A stretch of 64,000 bases of DNA, from NCBI RefSeq assembly GCF_019649055.1, contig NW_026570273.1, positions 806,001 through 870,000 of the forward strand, read 5' to 3'. Every line of letters begins with the position of its first letter. Position 1 is the first letter of the stretch. The DNA is from Paramacrobiotus metropolitanus (lineage: Eukaryota; Tardigrada; Eutardigrada; Parachela; Macrobiotidae). The translations under genes were made by a program, and so were the position numbers. The notes beneath the pieces are model-generated. The model was not told the origin of the DNA, searched no databases, and was given only the letters and a program-made list of their open reading frames with translations. Below, in pieces: positions 1,110 through 49,476 of this stretch.

Positions 1110-1200
1110 CAACCGCTGGTACCGGTAATGCTGACTGCGCTTCTGCCGAGCTGGTGCACTGCGACCGAACATTTTTTCGGGAAAATCACCTTCAAGTGGC
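1110..1200 (-). promoter_or_regulatory. B/C-family promoter module for C6
   Basis: Read on the minus strand, this has the shared order CCACTTGAA, TTTTCCCGAAAAA, TGTTCGG, a GAGCTCGGCAGAAGCGC-like stretch, CAGTCAGCATTACCGG and a trailing CGGTTGGCGG. The CAGTCAGCA core lies about 215 bp before the ATG at 921. A TATA-like tatatac stretch lies between them near 1045-1065. Seven other copies occur in the window at nearly the same spacing. Confidence 0.7.
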
Positions 1201-2448
1201 TAGCCATCGCAGTACTGATGTGTAATATTACTGGAATCGTGAAGGTATTACATGTACAGTAGTTCGATCGAATACTATAAATGATGACAGTGGCATGTAA
1301 GAAGGGCCTTTCTTGAAATCTGATCTATGATTTCAGTTAACGATGAATCTTAGCATGCATTTACGCACCCTGTCACTTGAAAATGTTTTTGGGAAAGAAT
1401 TTTTAAGCGGTAAGCTTTATAAATTTACACATTTGAGTGTTTTCTCAAATATATAATTGTGTACGGAGTAGTTTGTTTCTGGATATTATACCTGACTACC
1501 TGAGTAAAGCTAACAGGCTCGCTACATGGCGCCGGAAATTTAAACCATCTTACGAACCAAAAAATTCTGCGTTCGGCAAAAGCCAGTTTATTAAATGCGT
1601 CGCAACACTGACAACACTATTTTGCAGTAAGTTACAATTAATTTTTCGCGCCAGACTCTGTGCCTTGCTAGTTGCCAAACACAAAAATCCGTAATTAATT
1701 CCATAAACTTATCATCACCGCATAAAGATCTGCACGAGGGACGAAAAGAAGTTAAGCATGTATGTCTTTCCGCAACTACATAATATTATTATTTGTGTAA
1801 TGAGTCTTGTGTGATAAAGTCGTGATCGAGATAGCCGTTAACACTTTACTGGTATGCCGGGCTGTACAGATGGTTGCACGCAGTCCGGTTTTGTAGGAAA
1901 TTATGACTGTACGATGTAATATACTTCTATACAATATGATGTAATATGCGCTTTTGGATAACTTGATCTCAGCGTGCTCACATCATGTTCTTCGCATAAC
2001 ATCAGGCAGTTTTAACGCGGTTGCTGATGCAAGATGTTAACCTGCCGCAGCCTATAGAAAACAGTCGGATAAAATGATCATACAAAGTTACAAGTAATGG
2101 TAAGACAAAGCCATTATCGCGTTTCCGGTTTTCTCATTGCAGGAAATGACTATTATACTCGTACCCTACCAGCAGAAAGAAAATCGTTCGTGTTTTTCGG
2201 TGATGACACATCGTCCTTATCTTATTTCCCGAGCGAAACTGGCTTACCGTTGATTTAATTGCGGAATATACTCATAATGAATGGCAGCTATGTTGGACTG
2301 TTGCTGTACTGTATTCAGCAAAACGTTATCTCAACTTCGCTGTAAGGCCGCATTGGACATGCGTATTATCTGTTTGTTTAAAATCGAAGCTTTAATTATT
2401 ACCACAGATTGATATACAGCCTCACATGTTCCAACCGAGCTGTGAGCA
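1201..2448. other. Intergenic, upstream of the RING gene
   Basis: No open frame here has family support. Around 2130-2160 a short stretch (cattgcaggaaatgac) resembles the region upstream of the two other RING copies near 36270 and 44330, so part of this is probably the RING promoter. Confidence 0.4.
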
Positions 2449-3702
2449 ATGAACGGTAAACTTGCTGGACACTTAGAATGTGGAATCTGTTTGGAACTCG
2501 CCGTTAAAGCCGTTGAATCGACGTGCTGTCATAAAATCTTCTGCTCCCAGTGCGTCTTACGCCTCCGAGACGACCGATGTCCCAATTGCCGCGAGGACGA
2601 CTTTGATTCGGTGGATTCACATCTCGCGCGGCGAATAATTAACGACTTCCCGGCCCATTGTCACTTTTGCCAAGCGGCGGTAACGCGAGGAAACGTGGAC
2701 GACCATATGGCGATGTGTGATGATCGGATGACCCAGTGTACTGCGCCGGGTTTTAAATATACCGGCAATCCAAAAGGATTTATTGATCACATTGCCGGTT
2801 CCCATAGCGATCAACTTCTAAAGAACGCAGTGGCACTTTTCATGCGCAGTCCTGTGGAAGGGGAAGATGGAGACCGCATCCGGATTCGGGACAATCCCGA
2901 TGGGAACGTGGCACGACAGGGGGCTAGCGGCAAGTACTACTGCGGAAAGGCGCTTAACGGGAACTGCCGCTGCTGTGACGGGTACGAAGCGTAGAGCGAC
3001 ACCTGTCGTAATTAAATTAAACCAGCTTGTGCGCCCAACATCCGCCAACGGTGTTCGGTGTTCCTTAATTTGTTAACCCCACTTTAACAAATTTTAAAAA
3101 ATAATAAAGATCGGGTTTGGATTAAAAATAATCTCCCTGTCAAAGGTCTTCACGTGAAAAGTTTGAAGAAGATCTGTCGATAATGACGTTGGTGCACCGG
3201 TTTGCTTTTAATTTTACTTAAATCCAGTTTTATCTAAATTTTTTGTCAAACAGTCTTCGCGTGACCAAGTGGTTTTCACGTCAATGTATACAATTTATTT
3301 GGCTACTAGATGACGATAAGCAGATGACGATATTGTTAATCAAAATTTCCTCTGTTATGATTAATACGTTATGCAATAGATTTAAGTACTCAAGTTTTGA
3401 CATGCTCAGATTGAAACATGTGGTTTTCACCTGCTAGGTTCTGTGGACCAGATAACGGTTGCAATTGCCAAGCATGCATGAAGCTGGACATTGCTGCGCG
3501 GTGCCTGCCAAAGGGTTATCTGGTCAACAAGGAAGGTGCCACGTGCAGAAAAGGCACCACCGGCTTGTACTACTGCGGTCGGCGTGTTCTGGTCGGAAAG
3601 GACGACTGTGATGGTCACTGCGGGCCGACCAACGGTCCGAACTGCAGTGCATGCAAAATGCTTGATGTCCAGGCTGATGACCGGTATGCTAGCTGTCTGT
3701 AG
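2449..3702 (+). CDS. RING / TRAF-type zinc-finger protein with C-terminal Cys module (RING1)
   Basis: Two exons, 2449-2981 and 3438-3702, joined by a 456-nt GT-AG intron, give 265 aa. The junction is supported because the spliced reading recreates a module whose second copy lies wholly in exon 2: YYCGK...CCDG|FCGPDNGCNCQAC matches YYCGR...CDGHCGPTNGPNC. Residues 11-47 form a C3HC4 RING (C11, C14, C26, H28, C32, C35, C44, C47). A C-x2-C...H-x3-C finger of TRAF/Sina type follows (CHFCQAAV...DHMAMC). The next finger has lost its second Cys (CTAPGF, against CAAPNC in the paralog). RING proteins of this layout are E3 ubiquitin ligases, so ligase activity is a family inference. The double Cys module is not a domain I can name. 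The ATG at 2449 aligns with the starts of both paralogs. Confidence 0.82.
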
Positions 3703-3724
3703 TGGGTTGGCGGCATCCACGTAG

Positions 3725-5036
3725 CACGACTTTGGTCGACAGTACTCGACACGGATTTTTACATACGGTATTCGAAATTTCGAACCGTTCTGACTTCCGA
3801 TGGTTCTTTACGGTACAACGCGGAACTGGTTTTCACTCGTAGGTTTCTCTTTGCGAATAATTCCTGTGAGTCAACGACTGCGTTTTGTTGGTTCAAATGT
3901 TATTGCTGTAATTTGAATGAAGAAGCGCCACTGTAATCTTATCGCTGCTACATATAATTGATGGGTATATGTTCTGCAGCCTAGTCAGTACCACTGTACC
4001 ACAACTCCAACCTTCAAGATATATCTGATATGATCGCATCATGACATGCGATACAATTTGCAAATAATCCAGTACGATGTTTTTCATCTCAGTATTTTCG
4101 GTTGGGTTGTATGTAAATATGTGCTGCAGACATTTTCCGTCTCGATGCAACATTACACCGGTTGCACAAAAAGCGGCTTTTAAGTACAGCATCCTTGGAT
4201 TGTCTCGTAGTCGTGAATGTTCTGTCCAGTATTTCATTCAGAACCGCACAACCAGTTCGGATAATGCCACGAGATGCAAATGACATCATAAAAGAGTTAA
4301 GCGTCTTACTTGACATTGCATCCCGTATCTGGAACAGCCGCGCCATACTCAAGCTGTAGATTGAGCGTATCTATGATAGTGCTGGGTTGGCCGGACCAAG
4401 CGGGCCGGGCAAGGTTTTGGCGGCCCGTGCCGTTCCTTTTATGAGTTTTTGTATATGAACATAAGTGTGACTGTGCAAACATAATTCGTGGCTGTTATAG
4501 TCATATGTAATGCTGATTTTATTAGCGGTAAATAGTACAAACTAGAGCGATGTCACCACGACCCACGGGTTTCTTGAACTGTGTACCTTCTACTCAGAAT
4601 TGAAACTATCATCCAGTGATATCTATTCTGGACTCTCAAAGTGAAGCCAGGCCTTCAAGCATGCTTCTGCACGAATACTTTTCTTACTTCGCCGTCCCCG
4701 CTTTTTCTACCATTTAATACTTGGTTACTTGATGACTCATAAGCGGTTCATGCTTATATGGCACAGACAGAAGCCAGAGAGAGTCTGAGAAGGACTGACC
4801 GGTGAAATCTGAATGCAGCAGGTGGACTAATAATCTGTTTTGTCCCGCTGCAGCATGAGCACAATGACGGGGGTGGCCAGAGCAAGAACATACTCAGTAG
4901 ATACCTATCTAGCTTTCTTGGTCAGACACAACTGCATTCTCTCTGATTCCCTTAACTAATGCGATTCTGGGCTGCTGAAAGCTTGAAAATATTCCCAACT
5001 ACCAGAAACACCGCATTTATTCTTTAGTATGGTGTT
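3725..5036. other. Intergenic, no supported gene
   Basis: Several overlapping open frames of about 70-115 codons lie on both strands at 3893-4352. They share the same DNA and lack homology to any family here or recognisable motifs, so they are not called. I see nothing else structured. Confidence 0.4.
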
Positions 5037-6810: not shown

Positions 6811-7218
6811 TTAAGGAAAAAGGGCGATTAAAGTTCCATCCATGCCTTCTTCTTTCTTCGCCTTCTTGTCGCAACGCGTTTTCTCACTTAAAACATGACA
6901 GCAGTCACAGTTAACGCCCGTTTCTGGTACGCACGTCAAAGACTCTTCGCCGGGTCCATTCTTGCAGTCGCGCTTATGATAAAATATATCCCAATACCCT
7001 GAAGGTTTCGGGTTAGTCACTCCGGTGAGAAGCCACATCGGTTCTGTAGTGGTGTCTGTGGCGATGGTTGTAGTGTCTGTGGCAATCACTCACAATTATG
7101 CCAAGGCACAAAACATTTTATTCTGGTGTGGGAACTTGCTCTTACCCTGGGGTTCAGCCACCGCAAAGGTCATCAGCACTAGCCCAAAAGTGCCAACAAC
7201 TGTCAAAAGTATCAGCAT
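6811..7218 (-). CDS. Family B secreted Cys-rich protein, copy B1
   Basis: This minus-strand gene has exon 1 at 7218-7146 and exon 2 at 7076-6811 (339 nt, 112 aa; donor G|GTAAG, acceptor CCACAG, phase 1). Exon 1 is a signal peptide (MLILLTVVGTFGLVLMTFAVA). The mature part begins with a Thr-rich linker (DTTTIATDTTT), followed by the Cys module CVPETGVNCDCC and a charged tail (KKAKKEEG). The spacing C-x-P-x2-G-x-N-C-x2-C is shared with B2 and with the tail of RING1. The protein is predicted to be extracellular and disulphide-bonded, with unknown function. Start choice rests on the signal peptide and on matching B2, which has the same exon boundary. The B/C promoter module lies upstream at 7415-7506. 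Confidence 0.75.
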
Positions 7219-7414: not shown

Positions 7415-7506
7415 GTTGCGATGCCGGGAAATGCTGCCTGTGCTCCTTCCGAGCTCGTACACTGTCAGCCCAACATGTTTTCGGGAAAAACATGTTTCAA
7501 GTGGCC
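7415..7506 (-). promoter_or_regulatory. B/C-family promoter module for B1
   Basis: The minus strand reads GGCCACTTGAAACATG, TTTTTCCCGAAAACATGTTGGG, a GAGCTCGGAAGGAGCAC stretch and CAGGCAGCATTTCCCGG. The core is about 218 bp before the B1 ATG. A TATA-like CCAATATAAGCAAG lies between them near 7357-7370. Confidence 0.65.
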
Positions 7507-7539
7507 AGACGTGGCTATATGTGTGTCGTTATCGGAGTG

Positions 7540-10299: not shown

Positions 10300-10885
10300 T
10301 GTTGATTTTGCAGAAGCACTTAATTGTTTAAATTCGTAGAGTTCGCCACTTCAAATTTTTTCCTAAAAACATGACTAGGTGGCATGTGAGTAAATGCAAA
10401 TTAAATTGCAGCGTTGCGTAAATGGGTTGTTGAGACCTGAAGATAATTATGTTCTAAATGCAGCTGTCATCATTCACTGCATTCGATCGGATTTAAATCC
10501 CTTCCATTCCCGTAACATCACACACCAGTACAGCGAAGTCTGCCCACTTGAGAATGCTTTTCCCAAAAAAATGTTCGGCTCCAACCCACGAGCTCGGTAG
10601 GAGCGCACTCAGCATTACCAGTATCTGCGCTTAGCGGACGAAGAAAAGCAAAACTCGACTGTAGCACACACGTTGTCGTATAAGCAGAAGTATATAAGCC
10701 AGACAATTGTGCACTTATGTGTGGGATTCAGTTCCTTTTATCTTTGCTCTGATCTGGCCCTTACAAACGCACTAACTCCCGAGCATTGCTGAGTGTCAGC
10801 TTTTTAATGTTCTCCAGCAGTTAAAATGGTTGTCGTACTATATCTACATAATACACTACAGTATCCTATTGCCTGTTCGAAAAAT
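10300..10885 (+). pseudogene. Decayed family C gene with intact upstream region
   Basis: The distal upstream block seen at all + strand C genes (TTTTGCAGAA...AAATTCGTAGAGTT) is present at about 10308-10345. It is followed by the promoter module at 10540-10640, a TATA-like agtatataagcc near 10689 and an ATG at 10826, all at the family spacing. The frame after the ATG begins MVVV like other C genes but stops after about 20 codons, and no exon 2 or 3 follows. The gene body was lost while the control region remains. Confidence 0.6.
10540..10640 (+). promoter_or_regulatory. B/C-family promoter module, orphan copy
   Basis: The parts CCACTTGAGAATG, TTTTCCC, AAATGTTCGGCT, CGAGCTCGGTAGGAGCGCA and CTCAGCATTACCAG occur in the family order. 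The core is about 220 bp before the ATG of the decayed gene at 10826. Confidence 0.65.
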
Positions 10886-11234: not shown

Positions 11235-12606
11235 TTATTTGTAGAATTTATATGTCCCTTCCGACGTGGATCGTTTTGGAAAGGAATACGGCTCCAAAAT
11301 CGAACCGAACTGTTCGCTTGGGTACTTGTACTTGTTTCCCGGACGTTCGAGAACAGGGCGTTCACCAATTTCAGCATAGAACTTGTTATAATCAATGTGC
11401 TCAACGGGGGGACGATGCGACCACAGCACATTCGCTCGCTCGATCATCTCTGCCAGATCTGGAACCAAATCCTTCGAAACATTTGACAATTTTCGTTGGA
11501 TAAAGTATCCCCGGTCCGGAGTGCCCTCCGGATTAAAAGCGCTGCAAAAAAATATTCAAACTGGTGCTTAAGTTCAATACGCTTCCATCAGGTGAACGAT
11601 GTCATACGATATGCAATAGGGCAACAGTTTAGTTTTTTTGGCACCAACCTCGAGGCAGGGGTTTCTTGCATCGCACTAGCTAGTTTTTTAATTTTATCCT
11701 GTGCGCATTTGAATATGATACCGTTGTAAGGAAACACTATTCGATCGCCGCCGTACTCGAACTTGTAAACATGGGCATACAAACATTTTTTGGTGCCCTC
11801 CAGAAGTCTCCTGATTCGACTTTCGGATACTGCAACACAAGATTTATTCCAGCTTTAGCAAACCAGAATCGTACTGAAGATTTATTAGGTAGTAAACGTC
11901 CAGAGAAGCTAGAATATGCAGTAAGTTGTCTCTGATCTGTCCATTTTTAATTCAGTGTTTTCCCCTTTTTAGCCACCTTAACCGCTCTTTGTATTGTGTA
12001 TATTTTAGGATGCCAGAATTTACGGGAATTAATTATTACCTAATTAGAGCCTGCTAGAAAGTCTTTGGATGCTGGTTCGGATATCCGATTTTATAGTTTA
12101 CAAAAATACAAATCTTTTAGTAATTAAAATATGAGCAAAACCGAAGCATTTTTAAAACCACATACTACAGTAAGTCAGTAGTGGAAGACAATTTACGCTT
12201 AGAAACTCAGGTTTCGAATTAACGATCGAGATTGGCAAATCATTTAGGTCGTGTTAACAGCGAAATCCCGTATCCTATTACCTTCCACTTTTCTCGTTAA
12301 ATAAACTGGGTTGTAAATGTTCATCATTTGCAACATTTATGCAGCTTTTTCAGTACACGTTGGATTTACCTCTCCGGCTTTAAAGCAACAATATTTCGGC
12401 AAATCTTACTGCTATGCTCAAGACCTGTTACTATTATTATGACGAAAACTACACCACCTACCCGTAGTAAGAAGCAGCACATAATCAGAAGAAATAGGCC
12501 GCTGCGCTACTTTCGCAGCACCGCGGGGAGTAGCCGCTGTAAAGGTCACCAACATTACAAGTCCAAAGACACTCAGAATCGCCAAACGTGGAAAGTATGT
12601 ACTCAT
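11235..12606 (-). CDS. Family C secreted protein, copy C5
   Basis: Minus-strand exons are 12606-12462, 11829 to about 11643, and 11541-11235. Exon 1 encodes a signal peptide (MSTYFPRLAILSVFGLVMLV) and ends ISSDYVLLLTTG at a GTAGG donor, phase 1. Exon 2 carries the family core CLYAHVYKF and NGIIFKC. Exon 3 carries GYFIQRKLS, a HIDYNKFY motif and the SFPKRS tail. The frame of exon 3 is fixed by homology and needs two bases from exon 2, but after RLV the sequence offers no clean GT donor in that phase (GT|GCCAAA). Unlike the + strand copies, exon 2 does not stop right after the Val. No B/C promoter module was found: a LINE tail begins 112 bp upstream of the ATG. The function is unknown and secretion is inferred. 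Confidence 0.68.
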
Positions 12607-12691
12607 ATAATATGTGCTGTATCGGGAAGTACACATCTTTAGATATAGTACGGGAAAGTATGTACTCATATAATATGTGCTGTATCGGGAA
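12590..12691. repeat. Short tandem duplication at the C5 start codon
   Basis: A stretch of about 39 bp beginning GGAAAGTATGTACTCATA occurs at about 12590-12629 and again at about 12652-12691. On the minus strand it duplicates the start codon and first codons of C5 (STYYMSTYFP), giving an alternative upstream start. The inner ATG at 12606 is preferred because it leads directly into the signal peptide. Confidence 0.7.
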
Positions 12692-12717
12692 TACACTACA
12701 GCAGATTAAGTTACATA

Positions 12718-13545
12718 AATCGACTATTTAGATACTTCCATTCTGGTGCAAGAATTAAATTATTCGAAGCTTTGGTTTTATCAGTGATCGATTATTGTGC
12801 CTCCTGCGTCCACCCAGTGTTAAAGACGTCCAGCGATACGGTAGAAAAGTGCCAAAAACGTTTTACAAAAACTTTGCTACTAGGAAATGATCCGGCAAAC
12901 TACGAAGAACGTTTAAAAGAGCTGCAGTGGGACAGTCTAAAATTACGTCGCATTAAGAAAGCGCTGATGTTTATTTATAAACTGAAGTTTGGCAAAGTGC
13001 CTTTGGGTGACCTTTGCATCCTTCCTTTGTTTGGTTGGTTCGGTTGCTGCGCTTGAATCTGTTGCAGGTAATACTCGGCATCACGCTCGGCTGACTCAAC
13101 ATCCATTTCCGATTGCACCGGCTCCAACGTCTATATGTGGTACAACGGTGACCGCCGTCCATGGATCTCACCTAAACGAAATGACTACCTTGTGGAACGA
13201 ACTCTCTTTTCCTGTGGAATCCTACCGGTCAACTTCCACGTTCCAGGCCGAACTGGATCGCGTTGACTGGGACAACCTTGCATGGATTAAGAAGCATCCT
13301 TTGTTTGTTAAAGATACTTAGATTTTTGGCTGCCCCATAGCTTGTTTCAGTTTTAAGTCGTACGAATTTTTTTCGATGCTGGTGGTAGTTTTATTTCCTT
13401 AATTAATGTACCGCATACTCCTAAACTCCTACTGTCATGATGTCACGCTTTTGTTTTCTTATTTCGAATTTTTCTGTCTTAGCTTAAAAGGAGGCGACGC
13501 CTCGTAGCAAAGGACAATAAACCAGTTATTATTATTATTGTACGA
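12718..13545 (+). mobile_element. 5'-truncated LINE tail (CR1/L2-like reverse transcriptase C-terminus)
   Basis: The reading frame from 12718 gives NRLFRYFHSG, LVLSVIDYC, VEKCQKRFTK, YEERLKELQWDSLKLRRIK and YKLKFGKV, the familiar end of CR1/L2-type reverse transcriptases. The frame shifts between about 13000 and 13075, then resumes with TTLWNELSFPVESYRSTSTF and ends at 13321. The 3' end closes with an ATT microsatellite (attattattattg) near 13530-13541. The element is truncated and frameshifted and therefore dead. Confidence 0.75.
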
Positions 13546-14873: not shown

Positions 14874-15002
14874 ACAGGCACCAACCCACTCATACTTGCA
14901 CCGGAGCCCAGTTTCATCGGCAGATGGCTAAAATTGCAGCATGTAGAGTAGGCAACTACAAACAATCTTTATAGAACAAAAAAGTCAATCACATTGAACA
15001 TT

Positions 15003-18000
15003 ATGCCAGATAAGCTGTACAATTACTTCGCTTATGTTAGATTTACAGTGGATGTGGTGAAGGAAGGCGTGATACAGCGGGGATATGTTACGGATATCGC
15101 TGACGATGGACTCATCATCGACTTCCATCATAATGGCCCATTGTCAACGGAAGTGGTTAAGTTCTCATGTATCCGCATACTGCCATCCAAAACATTTGCC
15201 GCCGACCGTTATCTTGAACCAGTCCGAATGGGCTCAGAGGTAGAGGTACTTCTTCGAGACACAGTGTAAGTCACTGCAATTTTTATCGTTACATTAATTG
15301 TATCATGATGCGAATTGCAAAACTACGAAGTGGTCGTATTTTCCAATGGTAGAGCTCAACCTCTGACCTGGAGAAAGGCCACTTTTGTGGGACTGGTACC
15401 TGACTATGGAAATAAGATGGTGCCAGACGAAGAGGGTGCCCAGTTCTCCTTGGTCCGACTGCAATCCAGGAATCCATTCTCTTTGGCCGTTGTAACTAAT
15501 CTGTGGCCGCCATTCGTAGCCAGTGATATACGTATCCGCCAGAAGCGACTTTGGCGAACGATCTCATCGAAATCCTTCAGCAAAGTGACAGTGCCGTACA
15601 CATCATATTCATGTACGAAGGCCGATTGTCCGTTTCCAAAATCTCCTCTTTTCTTTTATATGAAGCACATCGACGTTATTACCAAATTGGTCTGGCTAGA
15701 AGGGACTGGTACGCTTCTTCTGTCCGCTGACGATGTTAGTGTAACCGTGCTCTCCAGCCATAAAACTAAACGACTGCCCAAAATATTCCATCGATTGGTT
15801 TTCCACTTGTGCGACCAGTTTATGGAGCGATACATTACAAAAGGTTTGGTTTAAATCTTACTTTTCTTGTGAAGCGGATACGTATTGCTGCAAGCAAACA
15901 AAAGTAGATGTTGATCACCCTTTTACCTGGACAGAGTGGACAGAAACCCTTACTTAAAATTCTTAAGAAATCCAGTAATTCCAGTTTGCGGCACTAAATT
16001 CTTACTTCTGTTAATAAAATAAAACAACCATAACTTTTTTAAACTGCTCTGTCACAACTCACAAGTATCCTGTATGATACTGTAGTTTTATACGGGTCTG
16101 TCTTTTGAAAATAGGGGGTACCACTCGTAAGGAGATATGGCGCACAAACGCGATCCAAAAGCTACTGTTTTTTCCCAAATGGTTGGCTTCGAAATCAAGT
16201 GTCGCCGGTACGTTAAATCGAAATAACGAAGTTTTAACCTTCGCACTCAGTTTCCTGGTGTACAACAGAATCGGAAAAAGCATGTACCGATATGTTCTCG
16301 ATATTAATAATTAGCTTTTAGTACCTTTCAAAACTGGGGCAATTAGAAGATTTTACCGGGTTCTCTGTAAACACTTTCTCCGCCTTTTCTCGTGACAACA
16401 ATTACAGACAAGAAAAAAACCTAATTTATGAAGACCAATGGTTGCAGCAAGGATAATCTCCACGATAGGTAAGGAGCGACAAGTGGCCCGTTACCGTAGT
16501 AGTTGCCAAAAGAATAGCAAAACAACACTGCTGCGTCATCTGTACAGTTAAATTAAACGGGTTGTTGCTGCTGTATAATAGCTTACGTCTGCGACGAGCG
16601 GGACTCAGGAGTAATCTGCACAAGGTCGAAGACTACTCTGTCTGCTCATAACAAAAAAGCTTCCAATGGTGATTTGCAGGTGCCCTGATTTTTAAGGGCT
16701 TAACTCAGGATCTCGAGGTGTTTCCGACATTACATGCTCTACCAGACGTACTGCTGCGGGAGACATTACAAAGTATCGACAGGATATCACAAGATAGATG
16801 GGCTCTGAAATGGTAAGTAGTAATTGCAAAGTTATCGGTGATTGCCGTGCTTAATTCGATTGTTATAAAAACCAACGCAGCGCATCGAGGCTATAAAATC
16901 ACCTTGCAATTGCCTTTGTAAAATTTAGTTCGAGAGTAAACTTCACGCGTACGTAACCAAGAAATCCGTCCAGACCGATGGATTGTTAGCCGGGCAAGTT
17001 TACAGTTCCGCTGGCAAAAGCATTCGAGTTTAGAGTTTTCACACTTACCAAAATTGTGAAGCATTCCGATCAGGAGTTTGACCTGGATGGTTTTGGCGAA
17101 GCATGCGTATAATCATACTAAGATCGTATGTTCTGCTAGACTTCATATTTTTAGGAGCGCCGGAATGTTTTGCCGGCTTCAAATTACTAGCAAATGTTTG
17201 TACATGTTACAGTGTCTGCCGGAGATGGTACAGGCTTCAGTCAAGTCCCCTGGCAAAGAAATGTGTAATCCTGGAAGCTCCGGACCGCATACGCAATCAT
17301 CCGGTACAACTGGCTAATGCAATGCTTAAGCACACAACTCCATCGACACGGAGCCTACTTCTGATGCAGTTTTCTCCCAACCACAGTTACACGGCCATAC
17401 GATTAATCAAAGAAATGCAGTTGCATTTAGAGTTTTATGTATCCTACCGGAGTACAGACAGAGTACACTGGCGCAGTCAAATCCACGACCTTGAGGATGA
17501 ACTGGCATTCTATCCCTCAGTCAGCAATCTCCAAATTTCCTGCTCAATGAAATCGAAGAGCGGCGAACGACTTACGTTAGGTACATACATTGATAAAATA
17601 CTAGCATACTTTCAAATATAAGTGTGTACCATATCAATACTTCCGTCAATGATGTTAAACGATGATCACAGAAATAATCGTGGCAGCGTCGGACGGAATA
17701 AATTGTCTGCTGAACCGTTTGGGCGGTGGTTGGGTCTACTGTTGCACGACTAAAATCATGGTTGACACAGTTAAGGGAATTTCGCGTGTGCTCGATGCGC
17801 TAAATCTCCGCTGTTTCACACACGGCAAGCTATCTGAGGCCGTGGACTGTCAACAATATTGGCAATGGGAAGAAGGAGAACGGTTGAAGAATGATATGCA
17901 GCGGTGGCCTATATGTTCAGCAGCTTTTGAAGCTTTAACGAGAGGGTTTGAGAATTACTGTCCACCAAGCGAGTCGTACTCGTATTGTCAGGAAACTGGA

Positions 18001-18102
18001 TTCCACCCAGACATTCTGAAAGTGCTGATCCGTAAGCCTCGTTTGGTGGGAGAAGAACATTTTAGTTCATGCGGCGTTCAGAGTTGGCTTCGATTTACTT
18101 AA
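15003..18102 (+). CDS. Family E F-box protein with Tudor/Agenet-like N-terminus, copy E1
   Basis: Six exons: 15003-15265, 15353-15843, 16115-16207, 16680-16812, 17213-17580 and 17672-18102. They total 1779 nt (592 aa) with phases 2,1,1,2,1, identical in all copies. Residues of about 8-75 (VQRGYVTD-type, here VIQRGYVTDIADDGLIIDF) and 80-130 (PLTWRKATFVGLVPDYG) resemble tandem Tudor/Agenet strands as in FMRP-type proteins, by eye only. Exon 3 carries LLFFPKWLA. The F-box spans the exon 4/5 junction (LPDVLLRETLQSIDRI, then VCRRWYRLQSS). Exon 6 has WVYCCTTKIM, ALNLRC and CGVQSWLRF. F-box proteins recruit substrates to SCF ubiquitin ligases, so the N-terminus may bind the target. All exons are open with canonical splice sites, so this copy looks functional. 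Confidence 0.82.
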
Positions 18103-18885: not shown

Positions 18886-19128
18886 AATGCAGAAACTTTA
18901 ACATCATCATTTTGCAGAAACACTCGAATGGGTACATTCTTAGAGTTTTCGACTTCGTAATTCTTTCCAGAAGCATGGTCAGGTGGCAAATGCGTAAATG
19001 CAGACTAAGTTGCAGCGTTGAATAAACGCATAATTGAGATCTAAAAATAATTCTGTTTAAATTGCAGCTGTAATCATTTATTAATGCATTCGATCCGACT
19101 AAAATTTTCTCCATTTCAGCGTCGTCTG

Positions 19129-19225
19129 GCCACTTGAAGACGTTTTTCCTAAAACAATGTTCGACTGCAGCGTATTAGTTCGGCAGAAGCGCAGTCAGCA
19201 TTACCAGTATCAGCGGTTGGCGGAC
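19129..19225 (+). promoter_or_regulatory. B/C-family promoter module for C1
   Basis: CCACTTGAAGACGTTTTTCC, AATGTTCGACTGCAG, TTCGGCAGAAGCGCAGTCAG and CATTACCAGTATCAGCGG occur in order. The core is about 215 bp before the ATG. A TATA-like gaatataagcg follows near 19266. Confidence 0.7.
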
Positions 19226-19406: not shown

Positions 19407-20824
19407 ATGCTTACAAGTTTATCGATTTTTGGTATTTTTGGGTTGATGATTCTGGTGACCTTTACTGGGGTGCACTGCGGTGCTGCGATATCGAGGCAGG
19501 AGTCTTCTGAATATGTGCTGCTTATTACTTCGGGTAAGTCGTATGCATTTCAATCTGAAAAGTTAGGGCACATCAAACTTTACGATAGAGTTTTGACTAC
19601 ATAAATTGAAGTTGTTTTGAAATGCCACCCGGTAGCTCCTTTATTAACGAGCGTATACAAAACGAACATCCTGCAGTAACAATTATGTAAAGTGCACAAA
19701 TGACGAATACTTCCAGTTCGGTTTGATTAATGAGAACTTAGAAGCGAGCAGGTACGCGACCTGATGATAATTATTCTATCACTACCAGTAGAATTGCTAA
19801 GTGATTTATAAACCTGACTATCTGAAAGGGAGAACGGCAGTTGCTCAGCTGGGCTAAATTACAAAGTACTCGTATTATGGCTAATAATTACCTGTTTTAC
19901 AGACGTATAGCATAGCAGCTTTTACGATACTTCGATTGATTTTGCTTATATTTATGTACTTCAAGTTATTTTAAGTTTGTGGTTCATAAATAATTAACTA
20001 AAGTACCATTACAAAAAGAACGCCTCAAATCAGATGATGATGTACCCGTGTTAATTTCAATAAATCATTTTCGAATTTATGCAAAAAGCCAGATATAAGC
20101 AACAAAAAGGATATAAAAGTGAATGGCCGAGAAAACAACGGTCGTTGCGCATGTGGATTTCTTGAGAATTTCTTAGATTTCTTAATACGATGGTCGTGTA
20201 CCCAGTTCATGCCGTACTGTGTAAAGGAAACATCTATTGAAGAACCATGTATTGCAGACGACGGCAATCGGATCAATTTCCGCTTCGATCGCACGCAAGG
20301 ATTTCAGTACGCCCATGTGTACAAGTACATATGGAGCACAATCAGCAAATCGACCTTCCACGGTTTCATATTCAAATGCTCAAAAGAGAAACTTCCAGAG
20401 CTAGTTGACACGATAAAGGAAAAGATTTCCTTCAAGTTGGTGTGACGAGCTATGGCTTTATTTGTTAATTTGTCAGAAAGTCCAACTGTCACAAAACATA
20501 TTAAAATTAACAATAACAGTTTTAAGCATGCTCTACAGGGCTTTGGGTGAAAAGGATGTTCCGCACCACGCCTATTTTATCCACGGAAAATTGTCGAGTG
20601 TTCCAGACAAGCTGGCTCCAAAATTGAGTGAAATGATCCATCGTGCAGACAGACAGTGGGAAAACCGTGACCACATCGATTATACGAGTTTCTATTATGG
20701 TATGCCGGAACGCACGGTTATCACTCTGGAGCAGGCCCCAAGATTGGAGTTCGCTAAGTATCTGGAGCCGGAAAACTTTCCAAAGGTATCCCTGTCGAAG
20801 CGAATAAAGAATATTTTCGGGTAG
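19407..20824 (+). CDS. Family C secreted protein, copy C1
   Basis: Exons are 19407-19533, 20258-20441 and 20539-20824. Exon 1 is a signal peptide (MLTSLSIFGIFGLMILVTF) plus SSEYVLLITSG, with a GTAAG donor in phase 1. Exon 2 carries GFQYAHVYKY and HGFIFKC. Here the end of exon 2 allows splicing in the phase exon 3 needs (GT|GTGACG), giving 597 nt (198 aa). Exon 3 holds AYFIHGKLSSVPDKLAP, a HIDYTSFY motif and LEPENFPK. If the donor is ignored, the frame ends at once (FKLV then stop TGA at 20443-20445). The function is unknown. Secretion is inferred from the N-terminus, and the mature protein has no Cys pattern or catalytic motif I recognise. Confidence 0.75.
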
Positions 20825-28200: not shown

Positions 28201-28586
28201 TTCTCGGCGGTGGCTGGACGTACTGCTGCACGACCAAGACCATGAAGGACTCAGTCACGGGAATGTCACGTGTGCTGGATACATTAAATTTCCGTTGTTT
28301 TGAGCACGGCAAGTTATCAGATGCGATGGACTGCCCGCACCATTGGCAATGGAAAGATGGAGAACGATTGAAGAATGATCTGCAACGTTGGCCTATAAGT
28401 TCTACGGCATTGGGTGCCTTAACGAGAGGATTTGAGGATTACTGTCCAGCGAGCATGGAGACTTCAAGCTGTGAGCCAACGGGATTTCGTCCAGACATTT
28501 TGAAGGTGTTTATCCGAAAGCCCTGTTTGGTGGGAGAAGAACACTTCAATTCGTGCGGCGTTCAGAGCTGGTTTCGATTTATTTGA
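25255..28586 (+). pseudogene. Family E F-box gene, copy E2, single-base frameshift in exon 2
   Basis: All six exons are recognisable: 25255-25541, 25639-26134, 26459-26551, 26919-27045, 27494-27861 and 28156-28586, with canonical splice sites. Exon 2 is 496 nt, one base short of the length its phases require. The loss is at about 25764, where the family has TTCTCTTTGGCC and E2 has TTCTCTTGGCC, so the frame stops about 10 codons later. Downstream, the frame is intact with DIRIRQKRFW, FFPKWLA, F-box halves SEALQSMDKIAQRELKR and VCRRWYRLQSS, and the CGVQSWFRF end. The segment after the deletion (HKFRLT for NLWPPF) is also diverged, which favours real decay over a sequencing error. Intron 5 contains a small MITE (27878-28074). 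Confidence 0.75.
27878..28074. mobile_element. Small foldback MITE inside E2 intron 5
   Basis: The ends are TAGGGGGAATTCAACTGCT and its complement, extending inward with CTCCCTGTACTTG and TGACGGC words to arms of about 50 bp. TA dinucleotides flank both ends, consistent with a TA-targeting Tc1/mariner-like MITE. The other E copies lack it. Confidence 0.65.
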
Positions 28587-30120: not shown

Positions 30121-30236
30121 GCGTGCAATAGCCCGCTCTTGCTCGCATAAAAATCCAGCTAAATTGGCAGACGATCATAATTTTTGTGTGTAGAGTGTTT
30201 ACAGTTAACACGTGAGAAAAACAGTTTCATCGCATA

Positions 30237-33156
30237 ATGCTGAAGAATTCGCTTAAGTGGTACCACTCGGAGTCTCGTTCATATGATAAATTTACAGTAG
30301 ATGTAGTGCGAGATGACGTGATACAGCGGGGATTGGTCACGGATACTGCCGACGATGGACTCATCATATACTTTGAGCATGATGGCTCGTCATCCACAGA
30401 ACTGGTGGAAATTTCCAGTATCCGCGCATTGCCGACAAAAGAAATGGCCGCCTACCGTTACCTTAAGCTGTTCCAAGTGAATTCCGAGGTGGAGGTTCTG
30501 GTCCGTGGCTCAGTGTAAGTGAATAGGATTTTGTTGTTATATAACATGTGTGGGTACACTGAAATTGTCATCCTGAGTACGAATAATTACACCATATTTG
30601 CTGTATTTTTCACTAGAGACCAGCCTCTGACCTGGAGAAAAGCTACTTTCGTGGCAATGGTGCCTGAATATGGTACCAAGCGAGGTGAACAAGAGGGTGA
30701 ACGATATTTTTTGGTCCGACTGCAAACCAAAAATCCTTTCTCTTTGGCCGCTGTTGCTAATGTGTGGCCGCCAATCGTTGCCAGCGATGTACGAATTCGC
30801 CAAGAGCGACTCTGGCAGACAGCTACAACAAAGACATTCTTCAAGGTGATCGTACCGTATGCACCATGCCGCAAAACCGACTGTCCGTTTCCACAGTCAC
30901 CTCTTCTGTATTATATAAAGGAGCTGGGCGATTGTATGAAGTTGGCCTGGTTGAATACGACGGGCACTCTTATTGTGTCGACAGACGATGCCAGTATCAT
31001 CGTCCTTTGCCGCAAGAAATCTAAACGACTACGTCTCAGATTCCATCGACTGGTTTTTCACTTTTACCACGAGATTATGGAGCGATATTTTAGAAAAGGT
31101 TTGGCTTGCAGTCTAGTACGTCTGTACAGACAGTTTAGCACGGTTTCCCACGGCAATCATGATTTTCGGAAAGCTAGGTCTGGGGATTGGACCACTGGAT
31201 TTGGATGAGTAACCTTAAAGATTTTGTTTTTAAAACAGGGCATGCCCCAGATGCCAGTCGCACGGAAAAATGGTTCACAAAAACGATCGACAAACTACTG
31301 TTCTTTCCCAAATGGTTGGCTCCAAAATCAAACGTCGCCGGTACGTGAAAATAACGTTAAGAAAACTTTATTCTTCGCAATCAGTTTTAGCCTTAAATCA
31401 ACATACAGATACGTATGTTCTCGATGGCGAGTAAGAGTTACCGAGTAAGTAATTCTTTTGGACATTGGAAAATTAGAAAAAAGAGTATTGTAGCCGTTTT
31501 TAGGTAATTTTATTTCAGACGTTTTCTCCGTTTCTGTTCGTGCGCGAAATTGGAGACAGATAAAACCAGAAATGTAATGGCGAATGTATATTACAGTATG
31601 TTAAGCAGTTAAGATAGTGGTAGTGCTCACCAAAATAATAGCAACCCACGTAAGACTGCTGCATTGGTCATTACAAATTTACTATCACAGCATGCAGGTA
31701 ATTTGCAGGAGCCAGGATTATTAAAGGCACGGCTCGAGATCAGGAGGCTCTTCCAGCATTACAGGCTCTTCCGGATATATTGCTACGGGAGACCTTTCAA
31801 AGTATGGACGGGATAGCACAGAGGGATTTGAAACGGTAGGTGTAAAATCTTTGGTTTTTGCCGCGCTTGATTCGACCGTCCTAAAATTCAAATGTTGCAA
31901 CTTGCAACGCTCCGAGGCACTTCGAATTCATTCCAGTACTGGGATTCTGGAATCTACATTAGTAATCTGGATAATAGAATCCAGTACCCTTTTTGCGACA
32001 GCTTGTTTGTAAATTTAGATTCAGCCGTATGCATAAGGTTTGGGCTAATGGTGTTACAGACACTAGAGTATACTTTTCACTACTGTCCACAGAAAAAATG
32101 GACGAAGTACAATGCACTGGAGTCTTTTGACTTGTACTACAGTCCGCTATTGATACTATGCAAAAACAGCTGACTTTCGGTAATACACTGCAGATAAGAA
32201 TAAGTGTCTAAAATCTTGGTTTTTCAGCTACTGATTTCTAGCGAAGATTTCGCACTTTGTAGTGTCTGTTGGAGATGGTGCAGACTTCAGTCCAGTGTCA
32301 CGACAGAGAAATATGTGATGTTGGAAGCTCCGGACTACCAACACGTTCAGCCGGTACACCTGGCGAATGCAATGCTGCAGTACATCCCCAAATCGACACG
32401 AAATCTGCTACTAATACAGTACACTCCCAGCCACGGGTTAACGGCCATGCGGTTAATCAAAGAAATGCAGTTGCAGTTAAGGCTTTATGCGTCCTACCGC
32501 ACTTCCGTGCACTATCCCCGCGCAATTCACGACCTTGAGTACGAGCTGGAGTTGTATCCCACAGTCAATAATTTCCACATTTTCTGTACGATGAAATCGA
32601 AAAAGGCCGAACGAATTACTTTAGGTACAGTAAGACCATTTACTCCCAAATTTAGTAATACTGTACACCATAAGCACCCACGTACGAGTATTTCTGTTCT
32701 GTCGTTGATGTTACCCTAGAAATAATCATAGCAGCGCCGGACGAAATAAAATCGCTGCTGAACGTTCTGGGTGCAGGCGGCTGGACGTACTGCTGCACGA
32801 CAGAAACGATGAAAGGCACCGTTACGGGAATTTCACAGGTGCTCGATGCACTCAATCTCCGCTGTTCACAACACGGCAAGCTAACTGTTGCCGTTGACTG
32901 TCCGCACCGTACGTCATGGGAAGCGGGAGAACGGCTGAAAGAAGATCTGCAAGCTTGGCCTATAAGTTCAGCAGCGTTTGACGTCTTAACGAGGGGATTT
33001 GAGGATTACTGTCCACCGAGCACGCCGACGACTTCATATTGTGAGTTTACGGGATTCCGTCCAGAAGTTTTGAAAGTGCTGATCCGGAAGCCCTGCATGA
33101 TTGAAGAAGAATACTTTAGTTCATGCGGCGTTCAGAGTTGGCTGCGATTTGCGTGA
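30237..33156 (+). CDS. Family E F-box protein, copy E3
   Basis: Exons: 30237-30514, 30617-31098, 31239-31340, 31709-31835, 32263-32624 and 32720-33156. They total 1788 nt (595 aa) and keep the family phases. The N-terminal Tudor/Agenet-like blocks are VIQRGLVTDTADDGLIIYF and PLTWRKATFVAMVPEYG. Exon 3 has LLFFPKWLAPKS. The F-box is LPDILLRETFQSMDGIAQ, then VCWRWCRLQSS, with Trp and Cys replacing the usual Arg and Tyr of the family. Exon 6 has WTYCCTTETM and ends CGVQSWLRFA. All exons are open with GT-AG sites. The role as an SCF substrate adaptor is inferred from the F-box only. Confidence 0.8.
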
Positions 33157-39875: not shown

Positions 39876-40232
39876 AAAAGTTTACAGGGACTAAAGTAGT
39901 GTTTCTGGCGCCTTGTTACGCGACTGATATCTTTGGCCACGTACGAAATACAGGAACAAGTTAATTAGCATCATCTTGCAGAAACACTTGAATGTGTAAA
40001 TTCGCAGAGTTTGCCACTTAATATTTATTTTCTAAAGCAACATGTTCAGGTGGTAGGTGCACAAATACTCGTACTCGTACGTACATGCCAAATTTCAGAG
40101 TTGCATAAAAGTATACCTGAGATCAGAAGATCGGTCTTTCCTAAAATCTGCTGTCATCATATAATTATTTCTTTTAGTCCGACTAAAGTCGCCCCCATTC
40201 CAGTAATATTACTCAATAATACAGCCACACTT

Positions 40233-40521: not shown

Positions 40522-43500
40522 ATGGTTGTTCGTTTTTTCGCGAATTTATGTGTCCCTGCGTTGCTGCTGTTTGTGACCTTTGCAGCGTCAAAATCCTCCG
40601 GTGCAGCAAAAGATAGGCAGCAACGGATGTCTACTGATTTTGTACTCCTTATCACTTCGGGTAAGCGTAATAATTTTTATTGTTAACATCTAGTTTCAAA
40701 CCTGCGATGGACATTAGGTTTTCTCTTGTACCTGTACTTTCTGCGTTGAGGATAATCAATTGTAGTGCCAACTTCAAACACTGTATAGGTTGTGCATAAA
40801 AAGGAGAATACTAGCAGCTTGGTGCATTTGATGAAAATAGTAAAGACGGTCGACTTTAAACGATCGAAGATCACTAATAAAAGATCATTCTAGATAATTT
40901 GATCAGTAATGTTAAACCTGAGTTTCTAAACCTACCCTAAGAAAAGAAAGTCGCTCAGTTCGGCTAAAATAGTAGCCGTGTAATCGGCAGGCCTACATTG
41001 GGTTCTACGATACTTGGGGTTTGCCCATACTTTGGTCACAAAGTAAGTTTATAACTTCATAAATTGGGATCCAAGATTTCGTTCGAGCATGCAAAGTTGG
41101 TTTCACTACTATACGAGTATAATCGTGGAAATTTCAATAAATAATGTCATATTAATACAACAACGTCTTAAAAAGTAAAGCAATGGGAAAAACTGAACAA
41201 AGAAAGAACAGAACTGTGATGATGTGACATAGCAACGTGCGAACAGCAGCAGCGTAAGCTGCCAGTATGACTGTGAAGAGCTAAGTGAATAAATGACTTT
41301 GTGAAGACGTGACAATCTGGCGTGAGGAATCGAGCTCATTGCCGTTTAAGAGTGATAAAGTGTTTACGAACAGCGTGGTTATGCCTTCGGGAAGTGGTAC
41401 AGCCATGCTGTCGGGAGGAAGAAAGGAGGACACTGGTGGACTGATGAGATTTGAGCCAGCCGCAATGACCTGGCGGTCTTGGCAGTATCGCTACAAAAAT
41501 TATGTAGCACTGCACAAGGTCACGGACCTGGCCGAGCAAAAAGCGGTGTTGCTGGACGCCTTAGGCGTGGAGGCACTGGAGATCCTTATTTCCATGTGCC
41601 TGCCTGGCAGTCCGGACGATTTCACCGCTGGCCAGCTGGCGGATAAGCTGGAGCAAGCGTTTGTGAAGAAAACGCTGAAGGAGACGGAGTGGGCGTTATA
41701 CTTCAGGATTAAGCAGGAACCTGGGGAGACGCTCCTGGAGTTCTCCAATAGACTGCGCCGGAAGGCGACGGTGGTTGGGTTCCCTGCGACAGTCCTGGAG
41801 CAGAACATGATGGCTGCATTCACCAATGGACTGGTGAACGAAAACACCAGGCTGCACCTGATGTCAAAGACACGCACCAAGTTGGAGGAGTGCTTGGAGA
41901 TTTGCGAGCTGTACGAGCTCGCCCGGGGTACGAAGAAGACCACGGAGACGGTGGATGTGGCGAGAGTCCGCGATGGGCGTGGCCCGGATAAAGGTCACGG
42001 AGCTGGTGGCCGTGGAGAGAGGCCAAAAGGGCGTGAAGCCCAGGGCGACAACCGCCGCGGCAGAAGCGGTAGTGGGGAGAGAGACCATGAAGGCGGAAGC
42101 CAGGCGACACGGTGGCCATACAATGGCGGATGTTACGGATGCGGAGAGCGCGACCACCGCAAGGCCGAATGCTGGGCAAAAGAATTGCGGTGCGGCAATT
42201 GTGGTAAGTTAGGCCACATTGCCAGGGCCTGTCGCGCCGATCCAAAGGAGAAAGAGCAGCAAAGGGATGGTGCACGGCGCACCAATCTGATAGAAGAAGA
42301 GTTCGATGTGCTACAGGTTAATGTGGATAGTGATTTTGACTGTATGATTAAACATCAGCCTAGTTACACCAGGCGAGCGAGCAGCCGCCCCTGGAGATGC
42401 AGCAAGGACGGAGATGCGGTCCTGGATACTGTGCTAGGCGAATTGGCTGCCTTGCACACGAAGGTGGACGAAATGGCACGAAGGAGCACAGCAGTGACTC
42501 CGCGATACTGGAGACGGGTGGAGCATCGGCGATATCAGCCGGAGCAGAACCGGAACGTGGAAGAACTTGCGGCGAACGAAATGGCAGAAGACTGCGACGT
42601 TCAGCAACACGTGGTGGCAGTCAGCGATGGCGGAAACACTGACGGGGTCAGTATCGAACAGCCAGAAAATGATATCCCGCCAATCGGAAGCGTCTCCGAA
42701 AAGGAAAGGGGAACGGTTTCAAGCAGTGTACTGGTTAAGACTCGCAGCCAAATGAATCGGGAGAAGAAACGGAAAAAGAAGGAAGCAGTGAAAGATACCG
42801 ATATTTTGGATTTATTTTCCGATTAATTTGGTGTTAATTCTGGAATTCTTATGTTCAAATATCGTGCATTTTCTTTAGTGTGTTTCACACACTGGGGAAG
42901 GTGTGATGATGTGACATAGCAACGTGCGAACAGCAGCAGCGTAAGCTGCCAGTATGACTGTGAAGAGCTAAGTGAATAAATGACTTTGTGAAGACGTGAC
43001 AAGAACAAAAAATTACCAGGTTCACCTGCCGACTTCTGCATGGGAGAAGTTTACTTGATCTTTAATATGTGACCGTCAATCAAGTTCATACTGTACTGTA
43101 AATAAGATAGTCTGGTTAAAGAATGCTGTACTGCAGATGATAAGGATCACGTCAAATTCCGCTTCGAAACGAAGGGATTCCGGTTTGCCCATGTGTACAA
43201 TTTCAAGGTGACAAAGGGTGGCTCCTTGCCAATCTACTATGGTTTCCTATTCCAGTGCATTCAGTGCAAGAAGAGTCAAATTGAAGGGATAATTGACACG
43301 ATGCAGAAAGATTATACCGGGTCAGTGTAAAGAGTAATCTTTAGTGTTGTTTGATATTGCATGGTGTACGCTGGTCAAGCTGTAGGAAACTTAATAAACT
43401 AAAGACCTCAATGGGAGCATGTTTTTCCAGCCCTTTTCATGACGCTTCCCGGACACGAGCCTACTTTATCCATGGAAGAAATTTAACTGATCTTCCAAAA

Positions 43501-46686: not shown

Positions 46687-47289
46687 TCAATACATACGAA
46701 CATCGTACGTTAATGTTGATGTTTTATGAGTAATCATTTTATTATTACCCGTGTCAGTAGTGCCAAAACCGTTGGGCACTATGTGGTCGAAGTTTCCGCC
46801 AGCCTTAAAGCATGCATGTCGCTCCTCTTGCCAATCACAGCACCTGCAGTTGATACCCGAATCCGGCACGCAATACGCTGGATGTTCGGGCACCTCACCG
46901 GCGTCATAACCGCAAATGCGCTGTAGAGGAATATCGTCAACCCCCCTTATTTCTCTCTTCGGTCTGGCGATGGATAGCGCTACCGGTGCGGTAGTGGTAG
47001 TGACATTATCCCGATGCAGGTCCAATAAATACCGGCATTTAGTCAGCTCCGGTTCGGTGGCACAACATTGACAGCTGGAACCGGACACCAGATCGCACCC
47101 GTTGAGAAGTGGTGCTGACGGATCGCACCCACGATCTACGGCCAGCGACATCCAAAGGTCACTAATCATTAGGTCTGTATACTCCTTTCTTTAATGTGAA
47201 CGTGGTTTCTTACCGGTGGGCTTAGCCGCTGTATAGGTCATCAGTAACAACAGCCCAAAAACAGCCGCAGGTGATAAACGTTCTACCAT
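46687..47289 (-). CDS. Family B secreted Cys-rich protein, copy B2
   Basis: Minus-strand exons are 47289-47214 and 47174-46687 (564 nt, 187 aa; donor G|GTAAG, acceptor TATACAG, phase 1 as in B1). Exon 1 is a signal peptide (MVERLSPAAVFGLLLLMTY). The mature protein has two Cys modules: CDLVSGSSCQCCATE...C, and CVPDSGINCRCCDWQ...C. A Thr-rich linker (NVTTTTAPVA) with a possible N-glycosylation site and a dibasic KREIRG stretch separate them. The C-terminus is polar without Cys. Extracellular location is inferred, and the function is unknown. The promoter module is at 47500-47592. Confidence 0.76.
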
Positions 47290-47499
47290 TTTGGTTGCTG
47301 ACGAAGAGTATTACAACAACACGGCAGTTCTACCAGAGCGTTTGCTGCAATAATACAGGTTGCACCACGGAATCAGCATACGAAAAGTGGAACACAATGT
47401 TGGAAAATGATTTTAATGGCAAACCGTTTTTGCTTACAGTACGTATATTCACGACGAAAGCTTGGCGCCAAGCGTTTTTTCCTATTTCTCTGTCTGCCA

Positions 47500-47592
47500 A
47501 CCGTTAATACAGGTAATGCTGACCGTGTTTCTTCCAAATATCGCACACTGCAGCCGAACATTTTCCCGGGAAAACTTTCTCTCAAGTGGTCA
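47500..47592 (-). promoter_or_regulatory. B/C-family promoter module for B2
   Basis: The minus strand reads CCACTTGAGAGAAAG, TTTTCCCGGGAAAATG, TTCGGCTGCAGTGTGCG and GGTCAGCATTACCTG, then TTAACGGTTGGC. The core is about 235 bp before the B2 ATG. Confidence 0.65.
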
Positions 47593-47639
47593 GACCTGGC
47601 TGCGCTGTGCGTAATATTACTGGTATGGAGACCGTAATC

Positions 47640-48300: not shown

Positions 48301-48453
48301 TCATCTACTCCAACGTCCGGTCGCATAAAAAGTCAGCCAGGCGTTCCGGTCGTTTAACCGTTCAAGAAGCTCCGGGGATACATCATCCGAGGGTTCCGGA
48401 CCTATAGCAATTTTCTTTATGTCAGGTTTGGTGCTGCTGTTCGCTTCAGTCAT
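48301..48453 (-). CDS. Possible 50-aa hypothetical peptide
   Basis: A short minus-strand frame from ATG 48453 to TGA 48301, with coding-like composition (MTEANSSTKPDIKKI...LLERLNDRNAWLTF). No signal peptide, homolog in the window or recognised motif. It could equally be a lone exon or chance. Confidence 0.25.
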   Translation of the reverse strand: MTEANSSTKPDIKKIAIGPEPSDDVSPELLERLNDRNAWLTFYATGRWSR

Positions 48454-49140
48454 AGCATCTGATACGGGTAGCTGTTCAAGCTAATTCCAAGCACTACACG
48501 ACAAAGAAGATTTTTGCTGAGATCAAAGTAAAAACCAGAAAGCAAAATCACATAAATAAAAGGGAAATTTCAATAAATATTGCAGTTCCTATACCATCTT
48601 ACAGACAGTTTTCGTAGTTTCAGGGGAAAATAAAGTATTACTGTTAAAAATTTATTTTATTTCCTTTTTTAATTTATAAGACACAAAAATAATTTACACA
48701 GCTGTTATTTTTGGTATCCGAAGAACCTAGCCTTTTAAGCAAAGACTGGGAACGAGATGTACTGTACTTAGCAGAATATTTTGGTGTGCAACAGTTTCGG
48801 CTAAATCTGCGCTTGAATTTTTCATTGCCATAATTCAAGGATTTTTATTGCTGCTGCCTAATACATTTAACAGCATTATTTGCCTAAGTGATCGTTACTT
48901 ATTCAATAAAAACAAGCTAGAATTTTGTGAGAAATTTTATGTTTCACAAAGTACACATTATCATTTTTGGTACGAGTTTTGACATCACTTTACACTTTAC
49001 ATGTAGCACAAAGTATGTATGTCGGAAATAAGAAATATTCCGAACGCATACTGCTATGGTCCTTAAAATGTTCCAATGGTTTTACCGCCTTATAGCGCCT
49101 ATTAGCTTTGGCCAGTTATGAAATGCAAAAAGTAACTTCA
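48454..49140. other. AT-rich intergenic DNA
   Basis: No supported gene. The family C distal upstream block begins near 49145. Confidence 0.35.
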
Positions 49141-49380
49141 ATAGCCTCATTTTGCAGAAACAATCATATTCATAAATTCGTAGAGTTTGCCACTGCAGAA
49201 TGTTTTTTCCAAAAAACACGTGAAGGCTAGCAGATGTGTAAATGCATACTAGGTGCAACGTTGCATGGTGGAGATCTGAAGATAGGCCGTTCTAAACGCG
49301 ACTGTCATCAATTATTGCATTTGATCGGAATAAAGTCTCCTCCATTCCAGTAATATTACCACACCAGTATAGCCACGTAT

Positions 49381-49476
49381 GGCCACTTGAGAACGCTTTT
49401 TCCCAAAACAATGTTCAGTTGTAGTGCGCGAGCCTGACAGGAGCGCAATCAGCATTACCGGTATTAACGGTTAGCG
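49381..49476 (+). promoter_or_regulatory. B/C-family promoter module for C4
   Basis: GGCCACTTGAGAACGCTTTT, CCCAAAACAATGTTCAG and CAATCAGCATTACCGG, then TTAACGGTTAGCG. The core is about 218 bp before the ATG. A gtatataaaag TATA-like word follows near 49519. Confidence 0.7.

Follow-up and report, generated by a model that had tools for sequence, protein, structure and literature searches.

The stretch analyzed here is a window of 64,000 bp from the tardigrade Paramacrobiotus metropolitanus (contig NW_026570273.1, positions 806,001 to 870,000). It carries eight copies of a conserved module of about 95 bp, which lie upstream of genes for two families of putative secreted proteins, termed B and C. 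The profile searches covered this window. The copies are located where the original prediction, made from the letters alone, had placed them (1110, 7415, 10540, 19129, 33802, 40233, 47500 and 49381), with those at 1110, 7415 and 47500 being on the minus strand and the other five on the plus strand. Its assignment of the downstream genes, six C-type and two B-type starts, was right as well, and all eight copies are in sense orientation relative to their downstream gene start.

Four C genes are on the plus strand and consist of a module followed by three predicted exons: C3 (module 19128–19220, exons 19407–20821), C4 (33801–33893 and 34076–35451), C5 (40233–40325 and 40522–43737) and C6 (49381–49474 and 49664–51099). 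Their modules, which are all part of the C profile, match it with expectation values (E) of 6.9e-27, 3.7e-26, 1e-26 and 7.2e-25, respectively. Intron 1 of C5 harbors a gag-like element, the open reading frame (ORF) of which (41297–42826) exhibits a zinc knuckle and a sub-threshold match to PNMA and is bordered by similar stretches at 41112–41345 and 42826–43050. The two remaining C genes are broken. C1, on the minus strand, has a module at 1109–1201 (in the profile, E = 1.9e-27), an exon 1 with signal peptide and tail whose reading frame is interrupted (791–921) and, from ORF clustering, an ORF with exon 2 that is cut by the window edge (3–176). The promoter of C2 stands apart from its gene body, with the module on the plus strand (10542–10634, in the profile, E = 1.3e-25), and with an exon 1 lacking the promoter (12463–12593, E = 2.5e-24) as well as exons 2 and 3 (11238–11829, from ORF clusters) inverted on the minus strand.

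Both B genes are on the minus strand. B1 comprises a module at 7423–7506, an exon 1 reaching from the ATG to a predicted phase-1 donor GGTAAG (7146–7218) and an ORF for a cysteine-rich mature body (6811–7089). The corresponding parts of B2 are located at 47497–47591, 47214–47289 (likewise ending in a predicted phase-1 donor GGTAAG) and 46687–47190. A Pfam scan of the B and C pieces, WFDC and Kunitz models included, matched no family; NCBIfam yielded no match for the B2 body or exon 3 of C6, and no PDB entry matched the sequence of the B2 body.

An alignment of the eight modules has 96 columns, of which 33 are invariant. The words previously used to describe the module are each present, but they represent a consensus and most of them do not occur in every copy: among the eight upstream regions, CCACTTGA was found in all, TTTTCCC in seven, CCACTTGAA and CATTACCGG in five each, the exact 18-mer CGGCAGAAGCGCAGTCAG in four and TGTTCGG in three. 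CCACTTGA has 11 sites in the window, three of which are outside the modules, while the 18-mer with up to three mismatches has five matches, compared with 0.01 expected from shuffling. The architecture is nearly fixed. CACTTGA and CAGCATT are spaced by 65–67 bp in all eight copies, and CAGCATT precedes the ATG by 207–232 bp, which is close to the predicted core-to-ATG distance of 211–235 bp. The TATA-like word expected in most copies is indeed present as TATAA in seven of the eight, 68–84 bp after CAGCATT; B2 has only a degenerate TATACG. With a background chance of 0.025 per 24-bp stretch this corresponds to a binomial P of about 5e-11, a value that has to be read with the reservation that the copies are related and the trials thus not independent. 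CACTTGA resembles an NK-2-type site, and AGTCAGCA a Maf half-site. Just upstream of the module, four copies carry the palindrome GTAATATTAC (1222–1231, 40203–40212, 47611–47620 and 49350–49359), which occurs at these sites only in the window. It contains the nonanucleotide known from the replication origins of certain circular single-stranded DNA viruses, a resemblance that is probably a coincidence. A search of viral contigs with a 25-mer from the module core yielded no matches.

When 930 bp around each copy were aligned, similarity extended well beyond the 95-bp module. The mean pairwise identity of the eight copies amounted to 0.65–0.66 at −90 to −30, 0.65–0.78 within the module, 0.45–0.57 across +150 to +270 and 0.62 at +270 to +300, around the start codon, whereas control alignments of randomly chosen 400-bp pieces from the window (five sets of eight) reached only 0.15–0.24. 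Upstream, the six C copies are similar to each other back to about −300, and the strong match to the B genes begins at about −105 (B1) and −138 (B2). An nhmmer profile built from the C copies alone recovered 47728–47209 of B2 (E = 1.4e-66) and 7610–7132 of B1 (E = 2.3e-56), stretches which include upstream region, module, TATA zone, 5′ untranslated region (5′UTR) and signal exon. Analogous C-only profiles for single segments ranked both B genes right after the C copies in each case. The values for B2 and B1 were 1.1e-17 and 8.4e-14 for −150 to −1, 3.3e-15 and 1.4e-14 for the module, 8.8e-6 and 2.5e-7 for the TATA zone and 2.1e-3 and 5.4e-4 for the 5′UTR, and the coding segment of the signal exon gave a good match for B2 (4.4e-7). 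Among the 12 best matches to the C-only profiles of the exon-1 tail and of intron 1, no B gene was matched at the correct place. The match between C and B stops just inside the predicted intron 1 of B, after 4 bp of it in B2 and 13 bp in B1, while exon 1 of the C genes is about 60 bp longer at this end and has, in C3–C6, a phase-1 donor of its own. The predicted donors place the end of exon 1 in phase 1 for B1, B2, C3, C4, C5 and C6. Owing to its interrupted reading frame, C1 comes out as phase 2, and C2, whose start is split off, was not counted.

Downstream of this boundary the two families have nothing recognizable in common. None of 20 comparisons between a B body and an ORF of C exon 2 or exon 3 exceeded its 300 shuffles, with the best one being matched by 24 of the 300, and the 400 bp following the stop codons of five C and two B genes exhibited no significant similarity between B and C (best E = 0.13). 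ORF clustering is uninformative on the kinship of the bodies, as even the two B bodies failed to cluster together at the cut-off used. The earlier statement of unrelated coding parts in B and C thus holds for the mature parts, but not for the signal-peptide exons, whose DNA sequences resemble each other, with B2 matching clearly and B1 on its own weakly. The bodies of B1 and B2, in turn, are alike (score 79 versus 61 for the best of 3000 shuffles), and both genes are sisters in trees of the 5′ region, with bootstrap values of 97 (−150 to +281) and 81 (−90 to +92). This grouping fits with a single fusion.

Conservation within the 5′ region is unevenly distributed. The two outer cores of the module contain 15 of 30 and 14 of 32 invariant columns and the part between them 6 of 30, compared with 7 of 106 in the 5′UTR. 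Among C3–C6, identity in the successive module thirds is 0.81, 0.58 and 0.90, and the values for the two cores are higher than those for codon positions 1 and 2 of exons 2 and 3 (0.57–0.67) and for the 5′UTR (0.63). In the neighboring RING-finger family, which served as a control, the relation is reversed (identity of at most 0.62 upstream versus 0.79–0.80 in the coding region). The fixed architecture, the pattern of cores and middle and the strong conservation of the cores support a reading of the module as a putative selected control element. The mature parts, by contrast, are highly variable. The ratio of nonsynonymous to synonymous differences per site (pN/pS) was 0.60–0.88 for exon 2 and 0.64–1.04 for exon 3 of the C genes (10 pairs each, including the broken C2) and 0.64–1.01 for both exons if C2 is left out (12 of the 20 pairs), compared with 0.26–0.34 in the RING family (three pairs) and 0.34–0.64 in a further neighboring family, D (16 pairs). 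These ratios, which are high but not shown to be above 1, show relaxed or diversifying evolution of the C bodies; as synonymous sites are near saturation in many pairs, pN/pS cannot separate the two.

Taken together, the eight modules are probably the proximal promoters of eight genes that possess one homologous 5′ cassette of about 480–520 bp. The sequence shows this cassette to be homologous in all eight genes; it consists of upstream elements, the two-part module at fixed spacing, a TATA box, the 5′UTR and a signal-peptide exon which ends in a phase-1 intron. In the simplest history, family C would have spread through duplication, a single recombination at the signal exon or directly downstream of it would have joined the cassette to a different body, and the resulting fusion would then have been duplicated into B1 and B2. 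If transcription begins about 30 bp past the TATA box, the module is located about 165 to 75 bp before the start. Transcription factors would bind the two module cores at their fixed spacing upstream of the TATA box, and the transcript would carry a related leader and signal-peptide exon, with the phase-1 boundary allowing a body to be joined with its frame intact. B and C proteins would thereby obtain a common time or place of expression as well as a common entry into the secretory pathway. The B and C genes may be co-expressed, and any gland, stress or defense role is a guess.

Several observations weigh against this interpretation or parts of it. We think that the fusion led from a C-type gene to B, though it may have run the other way. 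The coding segment of the signal exon gave only a weak C-only match for B1 (E = 0.016), and the upstream end of the cassette is blurred by a weak match of B1 to the further-upstream C region (E = 0.056 by segment, 0.15 with the full profile), so the similarity of B1 may reach further upstream. Exon 1 of the C genes, signal peptide included, is also variable (pN/pS 0.54–1.06, 10 pairs); as this is similar to the bodies, the signal peptide does not form a conserved island at the protein level. All of these ratios are rough, with pS being near saturation in many pairs. Family D has a conserved upstream block, too (best at −200 to −150, with 0.67), although below its own coding start (0.75 at +50 to +100), so that paralogs other than B and C are conserved upstream as well. 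Finally, the cores of the C1 and C2 modules are not visibly decayed although both genes are broken; under selection alone, decay would be expected in time.

That the module has a fixed architecture and is strongly conserved in front of the genes of both families would also fit an independent promoter module which two unrelated families had taken up as a co-expressed secretory program. We consider this unlikely, since the similarity of B and C is collinear and continues unbroken into the 5′UTR and the signal-peptide exon, which argues for a 5′ end that is common by descent. The interpretation given in the original prediction is therefore to be modified: a conserved control region of fixed architecture does precede the eight B and C starts, but it is part of a homologous cassette and not an independent promoter. 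Given this homology, shared control would come from common descent in the first place, with selection acting on top of it. Even less likely is recent gene conversion, by which conservation would result from concerted evolution and not from selection on a control element. A concerted homogenization has been proposed for similar genes of the Hessian fly (PMC2955719). Conversion tracts, however, would take in neighboring stretches, whereas the identity among C3–C6 alternates on a 30-bp scale, and the terminal branches of the tree (−150 to +281) are long (0.17–0.35 substitutions per site) with no near-identical pair.

That the module is a dispersed repeat or a fragment of a mobile element that came to lie near genes by chance appears very improbable. 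Eight copies within 64 kb on both strands and retroelements in the vicinity would be in line with this idea, but the uniform sense orientation and the nearly constant distance before the B and C ATGs are not. Indeed, a profile from all eight copies, which recovers them with E ≤ 1.6e-161 as expected for the copies it was built from, had a single other significant match in the window, the C2 exon 1 lacking a promoter (12592–12396, minus strand, E = 1.4e-22), and one further match at noise level (E = 7.7); no search was made for terminal repeats or target-site duplications. A scatter of copies without genes, named beforehand as the pattern that would speak against a promoter, was thus not observed in the 64-kb window, where all eight copies precede a B or C exon 1 or ATG. 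There is hardly any chance that the module represents a short coding exon or a structured RNA. Partly open frames do run across it in some copies, but they are broken in several others and changes exhibit no clear codon periodicity (30, 23 and 28 by position). For an RNA structure, only one of 18 pairs showed a two-sided change, the covariation term was positive and hence unfavorable, and no Rfam model matched at its gathering score.

The closest precedents, by analogy, are the mammalian REST/WFDC/SPINT locus and the salivary gland genes of the Hessian fly. The REST/WFDC/SPINT locus (semenogelins, elafin/PI3, Svp1/Svp5) contains clustered genes for secreted proteins with a common signal-peptide exon, a phase-1 boundary and a wholly different secreted part (PMC3209443). 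The upstream promoter region is conserved there, and one new gene arose when the coding part of a gene came under the promoter and signal exon of another (PMC7556508). In the same way, promoter and signal-peptide exon of B and C are conserved across unrelated mature parts, with predicted phase-1 donors following the signal exon in B1, B2 and C3–C6. Unlike the mammalian genes, which as described have a third, 3′ untranslated exon that is conserved, B and C exhibited no similarity in their 3′ flanks, and while SPINT expression is reported mainly for the epididymis, B and C are known from their sequence alone. The likeness is one of description and concerns the way of working, with no membership being claimed. 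The small secreted salivary gland genes of the Hessian fly (SSSGP-1) are clustered and partly inverted, and their promoter, 5′UTR and signal peptide are conserved while the mature proteins diverge fast; similar promoters were accompanied by similar expression (PMC2955719). As in the fly, the module cores are more conserved than the mature coding regions, but the 5′UTR of C3–C6 is not. Intron and 3′UTR are described as conserved in the fly, whereas the similarity between B and C stops at the exon-1 donor. Positive selection was reported for SSSGP-1; the C values of 0.60–1.04 for exons 2 and 3 come from synonymous sites near saturation.

Two other systems are more distant. The KQY and KHI effector families of the pea aphid combine a common secretory-signal cassette with different coding regions, for which cassette assembly was proposed (PMC7495047). 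Their genes are described as having many miniature exons and being mostly scattered, unlike the C genes with three predicted exons in one 64-kb window. The nematode gland motifs DOG box (PMC4901422) and STATAWAARS (PMC6062891) tie a promoter element to secreted proteins unrelated in sequence, and the idea of the original prediction is closer to these than to the cassette systems. According to those reports they are motifs of 6–10 bp at unrelated, gland-linked genes genome-wide, while the B and C module is about 90 bp of homologous DNA inside a homologous cassette. Promoter and signal-peptide exon would form one transferable unit that makes new secreted proteins with ready-made regulation, a further example of a known route. 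Where a conserved promoter precedes seemingly unrelated genes, it appears advisable to check for a common first exon before a regulatory program is proposed. This window alone contains both kinds of genes and, with C2, a naturally broken copy in which promoter and body are apart.

The promoter and first codons of C2 lie on the plus strand near 10540–10835, while the rest of exon 1 together with exons 2 and 3 is inverted (12593–11238, minus strand) and adjoins a 34-bp tandem array at 12593–12691. Both breakpoints carry two exact words, one of 13 bp in inverted and one of 12 bp in direct orientation. The orphan promoter now faces the 3′ end of its own inverted gene and could, from this arrangement, produce antisense RNA. 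Alternatively, an assembly error might account for the split. An ORF beside the breakpoint (12649–13056) looks by eye like the C-terminal end of a reverse transcriptase from a long interspersed nuclear element (LINE); Pfam gave no match for it.

The window looks eukaryotic, as it further contains genes split by predicted GT-AG introns, a kinase, retroelements and a RING-finger family. The gene RING1 (2446–3702) encodes a RING finger and, beyond a predicted intron, two cysteine-rich repeats of the form YYCG...CGPxNGxNCxAC. Family C might have given its promoter and signal exon to the cysteine-rich repeat of this neighboring gene, by which a piece of a probable intracellular ubiquitin ligase would have become secreted; this origin of the B bodies is rather doubtful. 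In pairwise comparisons with shuffled sequences, B bodies resembled the RING repeats with p = 0.0007 (B1) and p = 0.0063 (B2), but a profile of the repeats matched B1 only with E = 0.11 (2 of 2000 shuffles were as good) and did not match B2 (218 of 2000). The RING repeats thus may be regarded as a weak lead. In the stretch read of the RING copies at 36514 and 45175, visual inspection revealed no repeat of this kind; the former has a weak match to the Sina zinc finger, the latter an early stop.

Family D consists of five multi-exon copies (14952–18102, 25183–28586, 30216–33156, 57963–61040 and 61572–62530, the last being cut by the window end), one of which has sub-threshold matches to an FMRP-like Tudor and an F-box-like domain. 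No relative could be confirmed either for one D protein searched against viral contigs or for one RING protein searched against genome contigs, and scans for tRNAs and Rfam families found nothing in the window. A reverse-transcriptase element at 52133–55960, which we take to be DIRS-like, exhibits a sub-threshold match to a tyrosine recombinase and is accompanied by identical repeats of 300 bp at 51518 and 55860.

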